Assembly: GCA_034670405.1 (NCBI GenBank)
Contig: JAXDDX010000015.1
Coordinates: 2,294,001 to 2,358,000, forward strand
Direction: 5' to 3'
Source of the DNA: Hoplostethus atlanticus
Lineage: Eukaryota; Chordata; Actinopteri; Trachichthyiformes; Trachichthyidae
Length of the DNA: 64,000 nucleotides
Every line of letters begins with the position of its first letter. Within the stretch, counting starts at the first letter, position 1. Under the pieces are notes generated by a model, which was not told the origin of the DNA, ran no database searches, and saw only the letters and a list, made by a program, of their open reading frames with translations. Positions 2,403-64,000 of the stretch are shown one piece after another. The translations under genes and the position numbers were made by a program.

Positions 2403-2896
2403 GTGCACCTGAATGAAGGCGGTCATGTTGTTATTGCACCTTGCACAATGCATTAGCCATATCAATAAAGGCTTAAGAGCACCTCCTGTTTGTACATTCT
2501 CTAAGCCACAGCACCTTCCTTCCTTCCCCTTTGCTATTTTCCAGCATTATTACTATACAAGTGTCCTGAGCACAATCACAGTCATCAACCCAATCATTTG
2601 GTTCCTTTATGGATGGAGCTATTAGAGCTATGGAGCTATTAGACCACAGAAGACACCTTTCATCACTCCACACACGGCAGAAAAAAGGCCCAACCTCTCT
2701 TAAAGGGGGGGTATTGTACTCATTTTGGGCTATTTAAAAACTGTTCCTGGGGGGTCTTTACAAGACGTTTGTGAAGTCTATATCAAAAAAAATCCTAAAA
2801 CCAGCTTCTGTGGTGTGTGTTTCAGTCTCTCATTTTCTCCATTGTAAAGAACAGGCTGTTTTGAGGGCGTGGAGGTTGTATGTAATGAGCACTGCT

Positions 2897-2930
2897 CTGA
2901 TTGGCTGCCTCGCATGAGGCGGCCAATCAG
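2897..2930 (+). promoter_or_regulatory. Paired inverted CCAAT boxes in the TTAA element
   Basis: CTGATTGG at 2897-2904 and CCAATCAG at 2923-2930 form a short hairpin about 100 bp upstream of the exon 1 ATG. The other copy has the same arrangement at 63006-63042. Confidence 0.5.
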
Positions 2931-3028
2931 CAACAACCTCCACGCAATAGCCTGGCGGAGGCGGAGAGCAGAGCGCTCATGCTGCTCAAGGTAAACAAAT
3001 AAGCTTGATGCAGAAATTTACCATAACC

Positions 3029-3130
3029 ATGGTGGCCGCTCCAGAACCAACACTGAGACCGTACATGTTTGAGCCGGAGTCTGACCCAGAATGGGAAGAG
3101 GCAGCTGAGGCGGTTCCACTTAGTTTCTCA
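3029..3130 (+). pseudogene. P2X7-like intracellular-domain exon 1, decayed copy
   Basis: Begins MVAAPEPTLRPYMFEPESDP and continues EWEEAAEAVPL, matching the exon at 63127-63283. Relative to that copy it lacks 36 bp (the block encoding SVADSGSN…SL) and a further block of about 17 bp that shifts the frame. The donor GGTAAC has become GATAAC. No downstream exons remain. Confidence 0.75.
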
Positions 3131-3925
3131 ATGATAACAATTCTGTGTAATATTGTACTTTGTTTTGTGTATGTGGGTGTGTGAGCGACACTCTCTGCCG
3201 TAGCCGGTCTGTTTATGGCTCATGTCCATAAGCTTATTGAATACAACTTGCAGACAAGCTAGGATTGACAATTTTGTTGAGCTAGTTAGCCAATATATTA
3301 TTGGATGCAATCTATTTGCATCCAACAGCGCAGCGCAAACAACCAAACGTGATTGTACTAATGGTGGCTAAAGTTTACCGAGCCTGACACGTTCGACAGA
3401 CTTATAAAACAGACACTGGTCCCAACAAATAACTTAAAGATGAGTCCTGACTCCAACCAATAACTTTACTTTTACTTTACTTTACTTTTAATGACTCCAG
3501 CTTTAGTTTTCTCTACTTCTTCCACGCCCAACAAGCCCGTGGCTAGCCCCGCTAGCTCATTAGCTAACCAGCAGTCGAATATACTAACCAGACTAATTTG
3601 GTAAATTAAATCAAAACATGGTGACACTTACAGATTCCAATTTTGCAGATGGGTCACGTACCTTATGAATTGCTCCATCTTTAAGCTTCAATTTAGATGC
3701 TAATCCTGCCGTTGCTCAAGCAGTCTGAGGACTGATCATCACACACAGAGGAAAACTGTAGCCGTTGCCGTTAAAAATAAAATTAATCCACTCTGTCCTG
3801 GCATTTTCGCGTGTTGGGAGACTGTGCAGGGATCTATGTTGCTGCCTGCATCCTACAAAATAATAACTGGAGAGTTGATATATCGCCGTAGATATGTTGT
3901 TTTAGCTTCAGTCGTCGCAAAGTAA

Positions 3926-4173
3926 TGGTGCATTCCAGTGTACTCGGAAAAAACGGCGTCCGAATGTGATATGCGCCGATCCTCTTCACTAATGGCGCTG
4001 TAGTAGTTGATGTTGAGTTTAGATGCTTGTAACATTCTGAGACTTGCCATACAAACATGAGTTTGCTGCGGGCGATTATGTTTTCCCGAGCAGATGCACT
4101 GGAACACATTTAGATTGGAAGTTAGGAATACCGACTCGGAATTATCGATTTCCGAGTACAATGGAATGCACCA
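3926..4173 (+). mobile_element. Harbinger-type MITE, 248 bp
   Basis: Terminal inverted repeats of about 25 bp start TGGTGCATTCCA and continue GTGTACTCGGAAA; the right end is ATTTCCGAGTAC then AATGGAATGCACCA. TAA flanks both sides (3923-3925 and 4174-4176), the three-base duplication typical of PIF-Harbinger elements. No coding capacity. It lies inside the TTAA element, so it inserted later. Confidence 0.88.
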
Positions 4174-4620
4174 TAAGCAACGGCTTGCGGCACTGCAAGT
4201 GGGATTGGTTGTTCACCTGGGCGTGGGGATGCTCTGAGAGGGGCTGGATATGTAAGAAGCGCCCGTTATGACGTCCAAAGGAACCACTTTCTGAAACGGG
4301 CTGTTTTTCTCCTATCTTTGGCACCATTTTTGGAAAAAGGAAAATACAGAAAAACGGGTTGACTTCCAGATTTCAAATTTTCTCAGCTGCTTAGGGAAGT
4401 CATTTCCTGTGGAACATGTATAAGCTCCAGGAATAAACCGTTTTCCATAATATGGGACCTTTAATCAACTCATCTCATGCACTTCGTCCACCGACCAATG
4501 GGGGGCCTATCTGGTGTGATGATAGCACGACAATTGACCAATCACGTTGCAATCAGAGGCTCTTCTCTGGTAGCTAGAGAGAGTTGAGGCCATTAACCAA
4601 CAGCTTTGTCAAGCTGTTGG

Positions 4621-11920: not shown

Positions 11921-13026
11921 AGCTCTCGACAAAACCTATTTCCATTCCTCAGAGGAAGATTTGTACGTGTCCAATTTCCAACTCCCCAATCATTGTACTC
12001 CCTGGATGGCATGTACACCTCTCCTCAGTTCACTCATTTCTTGCATCCCACCACCTGTCCATTCTCCTTCCGGAGTTATTAAAGAGCTACGTAAAGGAAT
12101 ACATTTTTGGGAGATTGTCCCATTTGTCAAAGTGATGAGAACATAGACACCCAACATCAGCCATGTCTCCCTGGTAGATTGTTGGCTCTGGTGCTGCATG
12201 TTAACACTTCAGCATACACTATGTTGATAGATAGTAGGCTCCATGTTAATACTTCAGCATACACTATGTTGATAGATAGTAGGCTCCATGTTAATACTTC
12301 AGCATACACTATGTTGATAGATAGTAGGCTCCATGTTAATACTTCAGCATACACTATGTTGATAGATAGTAGGCTCCATGTTAATACTTCAGCATACACT
12401 ATGTTGATAGATAGTAGGCTCCATGTTAATACTTCAGCATACACTATGTTGATAGATAGTAGGCTCCATGTTAATACTTCAGCATACACTATGTTGATAG
12501 ATAGTAGGCTCCATGCTAACACTTCAGCATACACTATGTTGATAGATAGTAGGCTCCATGCTAATACTTCAGCATACACTATGTTGATAGATAGTAGGCT
12601 CCATGTTAATACTTTAGCATACACTATGTTGAGTGATATTAGGCTCCATGCTAACACTAGCATATACTAGGTCGAGTGATAGCAGTCCACTAGTCATAGT
12701 CCACTCAACATAGTGTATGCTAAAGTGTTAGCATGGAGCCTACTATCACTCAACATAGGGTTTTCTAAAGTGTTAGCATGGAGAGCAACCATCTACCGGG
12801 GACACATGGATGATTTTAGTGTCTATGCTCTCATCACGGCTTAACGGGTAAGTTGACTAATGGACAATCTCCAAAAAACCTGGGCGATTGGGCAGGTGAT
12901 GGGATGGAAGAAATGAGTCAAGTGAAGAGAGGTGTATAGTTCTTGATATACCAAAAAGGGAGTACAATGATTGGGGAGTTGGGACACATTTTCCTTCGAG
13001 GAATGGAAATAGGTTTTTAGAGAGCT
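11921..13026. mobile_element. Foldback element with asymmetric tandem arm
   Basis: The left arm (11921 to about 12250) and right arm (about 12700-13026) are inverted copies. Matching landmarks include 'aaacctatttccattcctc', 'caactccccaatcattgtac', 'actcatttctt-catccca', 'gatgaga-catagacac' and 'catg-gtcccc-ggtagat-gtt'. The outer boundaries are near AGCTCTC/GAGAGCT. No protein is encoded. The left arm contains a 45-bp tandem array of about ten units, the right arm about two units of the same sequence. It may be a foldback transposon or MITE; no clear target duplication was found. Confidence 0.8.
12196..12645 (+). repeat. 45-bp minisatellite, about ten units
   Basis: The unit contains 'ttaatacttcagcatacact' and 'atgttgatagatagtaggct'. 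At least six central units are identical and the outer ones carry scattered changes, the usual sign of recent expansion from the middle. Because 45 is divisible by three, long frames stay open on both strands without implying a protein. Confidence 0.97.
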
Positions 13027-14334
13027 CTATGTATTCCTTTAAGTAAAGTCCAGTGGGGGACTATAGATAGTGAACATAGTGTAAAAGGAATTCCCCTTTC
13101 AGTTATTCTCATCAGATAATACTGTTCATTTTCATTCCAGTCAAATATGTCAAATCTGAATTGTCCTGCAAAGTCTTGTTGAGATCAAATCTCCTTTAGA
13201 GAGAGATTTATTTCGAAGTATCGTATTATACTGAAAATCTGGGTATTTTCTAGTTCAGTATTTGTTGTCATATCATTAGCTGAGAGACATTACACTGGTG
13301 TCACTAGCTCCTCGTACGCTGGCAGTTGTCCAGTCTTTTGCAGAAACACCTGGATGTTCTCATTGACTTTCAGTCTAAATTCCCAGAGGAGAAATCCTCC
13401 TGTCCAAGGGACAAATGGTTGGAAAGCCTTTCAAGTTCAAGGACCCGGCAACTCTAACGGGATTCTCCGAGTGACTCTGGCAGTCCTGAACTTCTGCAGC
13501 TCACCAGCAATGGCACCTTGACAACAAGGCACAGATCCATGAAATTATTTTCACGCAGGCTCAGTGTTTCATTCATACTCCGCATTTAGTAAAGCAAACA
13601 CTTTTGCTTTTTTCTGTCCTAGCAAGCGTTTAAAAAAAGCAACAGACTGAATGCATGTCTGCAACCAGAGTGGACTGTTATGATAAAAAAATAATTTTAC
13701 AATTCAGATTTCACTCTGAATGAAATGCAACTAATGAACCACATCTGTTGGTCCAATGTCAATATTAACAAGGCAACAGTAAACATGTCGTCCCTCTCTG
13801 GACCTATCAGTAACAAATATGTCACTTTTTTTTGACCTGCTATCGTGGCCCCCCTTGGGCCAATCAGTGTCATTTTGAAAATGCCACAATGCAGTGGTGA
13901 GACGCACCATGCCCTAAAGTTTTGTCAATATCCAACAATTTTCGGAGATATGGCCTGCGTCGGATGGATGAAAGAATGAACAACCTGAATAATGAACTAA
14001 GTAACGAGGGATGGATGGAGACCAATCCATAGTCCCACAGCCGACCCGATTTCATTGCCGGGACCAATAAAAATTAAAGAGAATGTGATGCGCATCATAA
14101 AATTTAGGCTAGTCCTACTTAAAATGCTCTTGTAATGGTCTGACTGGCAAATAAAATTGTAATAACACTGCACATTTGCATTGAACTTGATCTGATTGTG
14201 TTAATTATTGTTACCTTTACCTTTGTTACCTGTATTTGGTTTACATGGGGATGTTGAAGCATAAAAAAAGTTTCTTCTTTGACAAAAAAAAAAAAAAAAA
14301 TAGGCTGATACTGGCTATGTGTAACATTTGAACC

Positions 14335-14447
14335 TGATGCTTTCCATGGCGTTTATTTTATTGCCAGGCGGATGGAGTTGGTTGATTTATAGGCAGGGAA
14401 TGAAAAGGAGAGGAGGGGGTAAACTATGACCTCCAGTTGGTGAGCAT
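14335..14447 (+). repeat. 113-bp block inverted relative to 19093-19207
   Basis: Runs from TGATGCTTTCCATGG to CCAGTTGGTGAGCAT and lies in gria4 intron 2, directly beside a reversed family B copy. Its partner lies in intron 1, so the pair brackets exon 2. Confidence 0.9.
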
Positions 14448-19092: not shown

Positions 19093-19207
19093 ATGCTCAC
19101 CAACTGGAGGTCATAGTTTACCCCCCCTCCTCTCCTTTTCATTCCCTGCCTATAAATCAACCAACTCCATCCGCCTGGCAGTAAAATAAACACCATGGAA
19201 AGCATCA
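19093..19207 (-). repeat. Inverted partner of 14335-14447, in gria4 intron 1
   Basis: The reverse complement of this 115-bp block matches 14335-14447 with two substitutions and a 2-bp difference in a G run. Identity stops sharply at both ends. It belongs to none of the other families recognised here. Confidence 0.9.
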
Positions 19208-19544
19208 GCTTTATTTATTCCCATGCCAGACGCTGTTAAATTGTTCAACTGAGGCAACCGGGGAGGGCAACTGCCTATATGTGACTGTGACAGAGGTTTT
19301 TTATTGCAGAGAGAGGACCGGGGCTGAGAGAGTCCATGCACGGGCAAGCCTGCATTGTGGGACTACACACACTTTCCCCTGCTCTGATCTGCTGCAGTGG
19401 CGGAGCGCATTGGGATGCACACACACTATATAGCCTGCAGATATATAATGCATTAGATGTGTGCATTAAAAAAACACACACACAGCATCAACACGCACAC
19501 TCTCTCCGTGTCATTTCTGCATAAGAAAATAATGGAATTCTGCA

Positions 19545-52540: not shown

Positions 52541-52544
52541 TTTC

Positions 52545-52975
52545 AAAATTAAAGGTGCTGTAGTAGCATTTTTAAACATCTATATATGATTGTCAAATAA
52601 ATTGTGACACCTTGGTATAATTACCGTAAACAAATGAGACCATGGTGGAGATGATCGGTAGCCTCTATCTCACACCAGTGGTATTGTTAGTGCTAGTGTT
52701 GCTCAAAAGACAACATTTCCCATAAACCTTGTTGTTTCCTGCTGCAAAGAGAAAGTGGCTTCTTCAGTCAGGTTTTCCCTTTGGCTTTGCTGAAGAGGAT
52801 AATGTCAGAATCTAGCATTGGCAGAAACTCTGGAAGAACAGCGCCCTCTTCCTTTTTGTGCCATAAAGCAATCCAGCAGATTTCCCACCAAATCCGACCC
52901 GGTGGCACAAACTGTAAAATGCAATGTAGAGGCCGGTAGAGGCTGCAAGTCTTCTTGATCAATCCAATACACTGC
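52545..52975 (+). mobile_element. Family B element, uninterrupted
   Basis: Starts TTAAAGGTGCTGTAGTAGCA and runs through 'ggtagcctctatctcaca', 'acatttcccataaaccttgt' and 'agcagatttcccacc'. The far terminal block is missing. Confidence 0.8.
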
Positions 52976-59424: not shown

Positions 59425-60235
59425 ATAATAATAAAAATAAACTTTAGGTATATAGCACTTTTCAAAACAAAGTTACAAAGTGCTTTAGAATACAAAATAA
59501 AAATGGTAGACAAACTGATGAACAAAATGATAAAAATAATTTAAAAACAGTTTAAAAGTTATACAACATTGAGCATAAGGAGCTACATATGAGAGAGTAA
59601 AATATGCTTAGCCCCTCAGTTGTATTTTTGCCCCCTCTGTTTAAGCTTTATGTATCTATAGAAAAATATTTCCATAGGTGTATGCTAGGGCGTCCATAGT
59701 AGCCCACTGAAACGGAGCGGAGGAGATCGATAGACAGACAGACACGTCACTTAGTTCGGTTTCTCAGCCTGCTTGCTTTTCGTGGTAGGTAAATACAACT
59801 TTATGGCCCTAATTCCATTTCCCCCCGTTGTAGAGGGAGAGAGAGAGGAGAGAGAGAGATGCAAGCTGCAAACTGCTGTTTCTACTCCTCCCCCTGCTGA
59901 TTTTGACAGAGAATCGTTTTCGTTCATAAATTCTCTGCAGTGCTCCGTTCTTATGTGAGTCTCTGATTAATAAATGTATATTCTTTGATTTTGAACAGTA
60001 GCCTTATGTTGTTGTTATTTAGCCTTTCTGAGGCTATTGCATGGTTAAATCAATGAGTTTTATTTCATGACAAATTGCCCCCTCAGTCACTTCATCCTGG
60101 CGCCGGCCTGGTAAAATAATCAATAAAATAAGAGTTAAGAGAATGCCTTTGTATAAAAATAGGTTTTAAGTAGTAACTTAACAGATACAACAGACCACAA
60201 TCCCTGTGAAAGCACACTTATAAAACTATGTTTTT
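59425..60235 (-). mobile_element. LINE 3' tail inserted in the Harbinger element, itself interrupted
   Basis: In reverse, 59425-59575 reads 'gcactttgtaactttgtttt' then 'gaaaagtgctatata', the L2-type tail ending in TTATTATTA. The LINE text appears to resume at 60105-60235. Between them (about 59580-60100) is a further unidentified insert with GA-rich sequence at 59837-59861. Confidence 0.6.
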
Positions 60236-60557
60236 AAGAGGACTGAGCTTTATTTTGTGATCTCCCCATCGGGCGTTGCTGATTCCCGTGTCTGAAAAAC
60301 CTTGCGGTGAGCTCTACACATGGGTGAAAGGATGCGTAGAAGTGCGCACCTTTTACCGCATAGGATTTTTCTATAAATCCCGACGTTTGCGGTAAAATAT
60401 GCGTACGCACATTTCACCCCCGTTAACGCCACTTTTTGTGCGTAGCAACCTTTATAAATGAGGCCCCTGGTCTCAGATCTGCTCCGTTAGCCTAGATGTT
60501 CTCTTTCCCACTATCCACACTTTGATTTTGGCAAGAAAAACAAGTGCAGTGAATTAA

Positions 60558-62816: not shown

Positions 62817-63005
62817 TTAAAGGGGGGGTATTGTACTAATTTGGGCTATTTAAAACTGTTCCTGGGGGTCTTGAAAAGATGTTTGTGAAGTCTATATCAA
62901 AAAAAATCCTAAAACCAGCTTCTGTGGTGTGTGTTTCAGTCTCTCATTTTCTCCATTGTAAAGAACAGGCTGTTTTGAGGGGGTGGAGTAGTGTGTAATG
63001 AGCAT

Positions 63006-63059
63006 GTGCTCTGATTGGCCGCCTCACGACCAATCAGAGCACGGAGTGAGGCGACCAAT
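63006..63059 (+). promoter_or_regulatory. CCAAT-box cluster and hairpin upstream of the P2X7-like gene
   Basis: GTGCTCTGATTGG (63006-63018) and CCAATCAGAGCAC (63030-63042) are perfect 13-bp inverted repeats. A third CCAAT lies at 63055-63059. The cluster is 70-120 bp before the ATG, a usual distance for NF-Y sites. Promoter function is inference. Confidence 0.5.
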
Positions 63060-63126
63060 CGCCTGGTGGGGGCGGGAGCAGAGCGCCCATGCTGCTAAAG
63101 GTAAACAAGCCTGACTACGTTAACCA

Positions 63127-63283
63127 TGGCGGCCGCTCCAGAAGCAACACTCAGTGTTGCAGACTCCGGCTCAAACATGTCCAGTCTCAGACCGTACATG
63201 TTTGAGCCGGAGTCTGACCCAGAATGGGAAGAGGCAGCTGAGGCAGTTCCACTTACAAGAACCCAGCAGAACGTTTCTCAGTG
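63127..63283 (+). CDS. P2X7-like intracellular-domain protein, exon 1
   Basis: ATG 63127 in a fair context (ACCATGG). The frame reads MAAAPEATLSVADSGSN, then RPYMFEPESDPEWEEAAEAV, then TRTQQNVSQ, and ends TG before the donor GTAACA. 'RPYMFEPESDPE' followed by an acidic stretch and 'W-C-x-C-x-N-C' is the N-terminal layout of fish proteins annotated as P2X purinoceptor 7-like, which carry only the receptor's intracellular C-terminal domain. The split tryptophan codon (TG|G) is completed by exon 2. No membrane segment is encoded, so this is not a receptor channel. Confidence 0.72.
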
Positions 63284-63566
63284 GTAACAATTTCGTGTAA
63301 TATTGTACTTTAGTGCGTGCGTGTGTTTTGCGCTTGTGTGTATGTGGGTGTGTGAGCTACACTCTCTGCTGTAGCGGTCTGTTTATGGCTCATGTCCATA
63401 AGCTTATTGAATGCAACTTGCAGACAAGCTAGGATTGACAATTTTGTTGAGCTAGTTAGCCAATATATTATTGGATGCAACCTATTTGCATCCAAACACC
63501 GCAGCGCTACGTTGTTTGGTATACTGTAGTCATATTGAGTGAATTTTCTGCACTACTTCTCAACAG

Positions 63567-63670
63567 GTGTACTTGTAGAAATTGTGCCACAATGCCAAGT
63601 GAAAGAGAAAACGTGTGCTTGCAGGGAGATCCAAACGGTGACTTGTGATAAAAGACATTCTATCTTCCGT
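63567..63670 (+). pseudogene. P2X7-like intracellular-domain protein, exon 2 (one-base frameshift)
   Basis: Acceptor CTTCTCAACAG. The exon completes W and reads CTCRNCATMPSERENVC, matching the W-C-x-C-x-N-C zinc-ligand motif of the P2X7 cytoplasmic ballast domain. After this one extra T shifts the frame; the other frame continues CREIQTVTCDKRHSIFR to a GTAATC donor. The exon is 104 nt where the phases require 103, supporting a single insertion. The gene copy is therefore probably non-functional, unless this is a sequencing error. Confidence 0.7.
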
Positions 63671-63735
63671 GTAATCAATGTAGTGTTTATGAAGTTTGGA
63701 AAATCCCTGTAGACTTACCGTTTCTCACTCAATAG

Positions 63736-63890
63736 GTTCTTCGGCGAATGAATGAAATCCGAGAACCACCTACATGTATGGTGGATCATAGGGGTTTCGG
63801 CAATGTTTGCTTGGACATGTTCGTCCTCCAAATGTCAGCTAACCGGTATAGAGCAGACTATGGGCGTTTACAGCATAGGCAAATGGCGAA
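63736..63890 (+). CDS. P2X7-like intracellular-domain protein, exon 3
   Basis: Acceptor TCACTCAATAG, donor GTAAGT. The open frame reads VLRRMNEIREPPTCMVDHRG, then FGNVCLDMFVLQMSANRYRA, then DYGRLQHRQMAK. This fits the second half of the domain, pattern CIT-HPGF--vCLd-wVLqtA---yr. Its Cys and His residues are candidate zinc ligands. The coding sequence should continue in a further exon beyond the window. Confidence 0.68.
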
Positions 63891-64000
63891 GTAAGTATTT
63901 TAGTTATTCTATGCATGACACAATTTCTCTAATAATCATAACCAATGGATAATACTGTGCATGACAATAAAAATGAGGACAGTAAGTGTTTGCATTCGGG

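Follow-up and report, generated by a model that had tools for sequence, protein, structure and literature searches.

The window, by which we mean the whole 64,000-base stretch analysed here (C15:2294001-2358000), contains at its right-hand end (62817..64000, + strand) the first 1,184 nt, counted from the left, of an element 4,291 nt long. Judged from its sequence, this element is almost certainly a Kol0-type Kolobok DNA transposon, the type being set by published description. This copy is a nonautonomous derivative, with a deletion in the transposase core and a broken KolX gene. KolX resembles the ballast domain, the zinc-binding domain of the C-terminal tail of P2X7, an immune receptor. In the accessible text of Kojima and Bao 2022 (PMC9587614), KolX is similar to residues 476-595 of P2X7 and is identified as the P2X7 ballast fold, and Kol0 Kolobok elements are described as duplicating TTAA, ending in 5'-RR/YY-3' and encoding both a DDD/E transposase and KolX. 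Since these Kol0 features were published together with KolX, and the link of the P2X7 ballast to Kolobok has been in print since 2022, the element here is a new example, of the same kind, of a known association. An earlier note on this DNA had proposed that a ballast-like domain was "captured and spread" by a TTAA-targeting transposon; a transposon that carries and spreads the domain is what we recover, whereas capture is the reverse of the direction given in the accessible part of that paper, in which a P2X4-like gene fused with KolX to give P2X7 (PMC9587614).

Ends and extent of the right-hand element

The element begins with a TTAA target copy (62817-62820), which together with the 5' terminus occupies 62817..62837 (+ strand; AGGGGGGGTATTGTACT). 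The genome sequence past the window supplies the remaining 3,111 nt, to C15:2361111, and a TTAA on the other side; the length of 4,291 nt leaves one TTAA uncounted. The first 21 nt are identical at 2700 and 62817, in both places starting from TTAA, which bears out the earlier claim of two copies about 60 kb apart with the same start beside TTAA; a search allowing up to five substitutions found no third site for this start within the 64,000-base window. TTAA occurs 404 times in the 64,000 bases (0.63% of positions), and chance is therefore an unlikely reason for finding it at each of the three ends that the window shows. The right- and left-hand copies align over 717 columns at 79.5% identity, including blocks of 87% (301 columns), 95% (175) and 97% (70), and the termini of both the right-hand family and the left copy are AG...CT, that is, of the 5'-RR/YY-3' form.

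Copies across the genome and empty sites

A search of the genome (632.8 Mb in 1,161 contigs), for which the query was the initial 724 nt of the right-hand element, returned at least 78 matches (40 scored of 1,309 candidates), several of them 99-100% identical; the copy counts from this and our other DNA searches are lower bounds. We sampled the 20 places that scored highest, taking 0.3-0.5 kb of sequence before each and as much as 9.7 kb after it (shorter at three contig ends); these copies were picked through their 5' ends, and proportions among them are not a genome count. TTAA is present at both ends in 19 of the 20, which start with TTAA-AGGGGGGG and end with GGGCCCT-TTAA. The exception, L027, has altered ends and by its flanks represents the same locus as L020 (94.7% over 10,100 columns). 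Flanks are likewise common to L016/L017/L022 and to L025/L026, so that the 20 places reduce to 16 distinct sites. Three sampled copies (L012-L014) are complete elements of about 6.66 kb (6,663-6,667 nt), whose short, imperfectly inverted ends, AGGGGGGG... and ...GGGCCCT, lie beside the TTAA duplications. A single deletion junction, at which about 2.2 kb of the transposase core is gone, is common to 16/20 copies, the window's included; L027 is too degraded for this comparison.

The right-hand copy sits in a dispersed repeat, and its two 100-nt flanks, joined around one TTAA and searched against the whole genome, gave at least 41 matches (40 scored of 1,649 candidates), comprising its own two flanks, one fragment and 38 that span the joint in one aligned piece. 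The letters of the joint were read at one of these, a paralogous empty site within the window (52542..52683, + strand), which has TCTA where the occupied site has TTAA. A paralogous empty site of another copy, L015, lies at 60023..60239 (- strand). It aligns at 90% over 217 columns and has TTAA once, slightly to the left of a 12-nt gap. These uninterrupted paralogues, together with the TTAA ends, indicate precise insertion with duplication of TTAA, for which the earlier note had suggested testing.

Several sampled loci have further features of their own. L016, L017 and L022 (on C801, C683 and C212) have the same flanks, yet the start of KolX exon 4 is missing in L017 alone; they may be a duplicated locus, alleles or products of gene conversion. 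In L019 a second element, about 88% similar and in the same orientation, lies 53 nt past the end of the first (L019:5108-6873). The right flank of L023 consists, from the TTAA on, of sequence of the 1.76-kb family described below (compare window 3488-3593), so the target of this insertion was probably a member of that family. L020 also holds a 1,060-residue reading frame that is LINE-like by eye.

The transposase

The three complete copies, L012-L014 (3/20), do encode a transposase, a point that the earlier note had raised; it is a multi-exon gene on the opposite strand, convergent with KolX. We followed it through seven stop-to-stop pieces selected in L013, all of which are matched in L012-L014; the six beyond the THAP piece are colinear, at 99.6-99.8%. 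The THAP domain itself is recovered in L013 with PF05485 (4.9e-13, 50.1 bits, cut-off 23.9); AVPTL stands at the position of the AVPTIF box. By eye, the core has the motifs GGDMRADSPG, TDRHPQIQ...DVWH (a DxxH) and ALESYH. We take these, leaning also on the published description, to be the first D, the second D with its DxxH, and the E, respectively; with the pieces in order, DVWH falls by eye between the second D and the E. No Pfam model scored above its cut-off against the DDE core, and the identity of the core therefore rests on the THAP domain, the order of the pieces, the published description and the motifs that we recognized by eye. The accessible literature gives C/DxxH as a signature of Kolobok transposases (PMC9587614) and THAP domains as usual in them (PMC6004289). 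The two D's lie in four pieces that are absent from 17/20 copies, the seventeenth being L027.

These features bear on whether the element is instead a piggyBac transposon that acquired a ballast-like gene. PiggyBac also duplicates TTAA, the target seen here, and according to the accessible text of PMC9587614 a few piggyBac families encode a protein like the C-terminus of KolX. That protein lacks most of the seven cysteines (PMC9587614), whereas the L013 KolX has its cysteine clusters in order; the 5'-RR/YY-3' termini found here are contrasted with piggyBac in the same source; and the transposase has a THAP domain and, by eye, DVWH. As both the ends and the THAP domain contradict it, we dropped the piggyBac identity, which we regard as very improbable.

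Pairing of KolX with the transposase in two families

Searched against the genome, KolX residues 53-180 had 107 matches among 125 candidates, and 61 residues from the transposase core had 19 among 24; in both searches every candidate was scored. Fifteen of the 19 core matches have a convergent match to the KolX 3' exon within 6 kb (at 0.75-2.2 kb), against a chance expectation of about 0.0002 per match; the other four (C9:5961188, C42, C591 and C431) have no KolX match nearby. The pairing count used 49 hand-listed KolX matches extending into the 3' exon, of which 15 are paired; a duplicate fragment (C822:4214) and matches to 5' exons only were set aside. Among the pairs is a second, diverged family (C49, C100:1406104, C114 and C358), with the core 42% identical and the KolX exons 44-54%; in its members L031 and L032 the WCxCxxC, CC and IPSC clusters are present where they were read. 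The KolX-transposase pair is old.

The same observations weigh on the idea that KolX is a host gene, nanor-like or P2X7-like, that stood beside repeats and was carried along once. Channel-less, nanor-like ballast genes do exist in fish, according to the accessible text of Rump et al. 2020 (PMC7016195); the KolX gene, on the other hand, lies inside the TTAA boundaries of copies that are nearly identical yet sit at different sites, and two families that have diverged from each other both pair it with the transposase; we consider a host gene even less probable than a piggyBac element. More distant ballast-like matches were also seen at C117:672790-673110, C52:3940-4104 and C30:53397-53561, some of which may be host P2X7 or nanor-like genes.

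The KolX gene and its ballast domain

In the window, KolX comprises exon 1 at 63126..63283 (158 nt, phase-2 donor GTAACA), exon 2 at 63567..63637, with a CxCxxC motif whose preceding W is completed across the intron, and exon 3 at 63736..63890 (TCMVDH...CLD...VLQ, donor GTAAGT), all on the + strand, with GT...AG introns in phases 2, 0 and 2. The earlier note had recognized these exons and their matching phases correctly, while placing the start of exon 1 one base late, at 63127. It had also postulated a frameshift before CCREI, and this holds: in the window copy one inserted nucleotide changes the frame just after ENVC, and CCREI is in a single frame in 16/20 copies (the exon was not located by script in three). 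Besides this insertion in exon 2, the window copy has lost about 45 nt, which removes the acceptor and start of exon 4. A 28-nt inverted repeat in exon 1 (63160..63216; 93% complementary, 1 nt between the arms), which has no counterpart in the left copy, could stem from a template switch.

We called KolX open where the start and stop codons, the reading frame and each of the six splice dinucleotides are in place. This is so in five of the 20 copies (L012, L013, L014, L024 and L028), of which L028 lacks 12 nt of exon 1 in frame. Another five (L015, L019, L020, L021 and L030) miss 5 nt near the 3' end of KolX and match without a stop to two residues before its end. The gene fails in other ways in the remaining 10/20, the window copy among them. 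The L013 gene has four exons with GT-AG introns and an open, 180-residue predicted protein, which matches P2RX7_C (PF20478) at 8e-18 (65.5 bits) and solved P2X7 chains in the PDB at 2.6e-11, confirming the ballast-like domain that had been proposed from the window; exon 4 alone reaches 7e-11 against P2RX7_C. The seven cysteines given in the accessible text of PMC9587614 are present in the L013 KolX by motif order (WCxCxxC, CC, C, LPAC). The PDB alignment puts the KolX CC pair five residues before human 498-499, and another alignment sets ENVC-R opposite EELCCR of two other P2X7 chains.

Within the window alone the evidence for the domain is no more than suggestive. Exons 1-3 joined, with X at the frameshift, match PF20478 at E=0.0013 (19.1 bits against a cut-off of 23.5) and exons 1-2 at E=0.0072; neither the exon-3 piece nor any single window exon matched Pfam (exon 1 being scanned one base out of frame), and a PDB search with the three exons joined gave chance matches only. 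The remainder of exon 4 of the same copy, past the window end, does exceed the 23.5-bit cut-off (3.3e-6, 27.6 bits), so that of the comparison of exon translations with Pfam suggested earlier, the portion inside the window falls short and the portion beyond it succeeds. CxCxxC occurs 13 times in the six frames of the window, and the longer CxCxxCxx[ML]P solely at KolX. In pairwise shuffles, the score of the exon 2-3 reading was reached in 5/2000 cases against human P2X7 and in 0/2000 against each of two other chains. Alternatively, noncoding repeat DNA might read as ballast motifs by chance. This would accord with the single exons lacking Pfam matches and with a profile of three P2X7 ballast sequences, which, applied to 3,325 stop-to-stop peptides of the window, left the window exons outside the top 12. 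Its probability is negligible, given that the open natural copy matches P2RX7_C and P2X7 structures, and exon 4 P2RX7_C, at the values given above.

The left-hand copy and other repeats of the window

The left-hand copy (2700..4464, + strand) has TTAA at both ends, at 2700 and at 4461-4464, as had been noted earlier. Its segment 2700-3336 matches the full element on the left side, at 79.8%, and 3341-3925 (77%) and 4207-4464 (88%) match it on the right. It retains a remnant of KolX exon 1 (3029..3124, + strand), in which by eye the donor GT is lost (ATAACA), and one of the THAP exon of the transposase (3614..3901, - strand), 56% identical to that of L013. The stretch 3925..4174 is bounded by a 26-nt inverted repeat and is missing from the full element; it is included in the full-length matches of the 1.76-kb family and is presumably an old nested insertion. 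The full 1,765 nt have at least 24 other matches in the genome at 87-94% (40 scored of 1,991 candidates). These full-length matches, taken with the partial homology, make the left copy a diverged, internally deleted relative of the right-hand element, from a multi-copy family.

Elsewhere in the window, 12103-12732 is a tandem array of a 45-bp unit, present about ten times or more, in which either strand has an open frame (191 and 169 aa, stop to stop); an inverted stretch, 89% complementary, is at 12702-12783. A further element may be marked by an 89-nt inverted repeat whose arms, 14331-14419 and 19123-19211, are 97% complementary and separated by 4.7 kb.

Relationship to known systems

The closest described relative is Kol0, represented by Kolobok-1_XT, which, in the accessible text of PMC9587614, has the same TTAA duplication, 5'-RR/YY-3' ends, and transposase together with a KolX bearing the ballast cysteines. 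Compared with this published description we found no difference in kind; the window copy differs from it as a deletion derivative with a broken KolX. The Xenopus Kolobok elements and T2-MITEs, as presented in the accessible part of PMC6004289, are alike in TTAA target, AG/AGGRR-type termini, THAP transposase and nonautonomous derivatives; unlike the element here, they have other end sequences, and the word KolX is absent from that text.

With the P2X7 ballast, KolX shares the WCxCxxC, CC, C-[IM] and LPxC...RIR.EFP clusters in unchanged order, and unlike P2X7 it stands without the channel part. The guanosine-site residues of rat P2X7 are given in the accessible text of PMC7016195 as R546, H547, R574, R578 and K583; read from the PDB alignment, the L013 KolX keeps R546 and R578, but not H547, R574 and K583. 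Stand-alone ballast proteins were already described by Rump et al. 2020 (PMC7016195), and zebrafish nanor and the nanor-like proteins of that work, as far as its accessible text goes, similarly have a stand-alone ballast domain with a short N-terminal part; in contrast to nanor, KolX here is still within a multi-copy transposon, alongside the transposase. The string "transpos" has 0 occurrences in the main text of that paper as accessible (PMC7016195). Seven pattern matches in viral contigs yielded no confirmed relative, and no relative was found in the phage records.

Possible function and implications

By analogy with known families, the complete element, with its two convergent multi-exon genes for KolX and a THAP transposase, would be mobilized by the transposase binding the element ends through THAP, excising the element by DDE chemistry and inserting it at TTAA. 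The persistence of the pairing across diverged families points to KolX as a putative, zinc-stabilised accessory protein of transposition, a role to which we give about even chances. It is quite improbable that KolX itself favours its carriers, for instance by preferring DNA that encodes KolX or by blunting a host response. This idea draws on the KolX-bearing derivative (16/20) being commoner than the full element (3/20) among the sampled copies; it is counted against by the fully open state of KolX in only two of the 16 derivative copies (L024 and L028; five more are altered near the end) and by the 1.76-kb family, which is likewise multi-copy without KolX. Amplification of a single derivative explains the abundance of derivatives without any role of KolX.

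Independently, and at the level of whole elements, one more genome thus confirms that Kolobok-like TTAA transposons contain the P2X7 ballast domain; the support comes from copies that are nearly identical, from the convergent arrangement of the two genes and from a second, diverged family in which this pairing recurs. The finding helps to make testable what has been proposed in print on how the P2X7 tail arose, and natural KolX proteins are material for measuring zinc and nucleotide binding.
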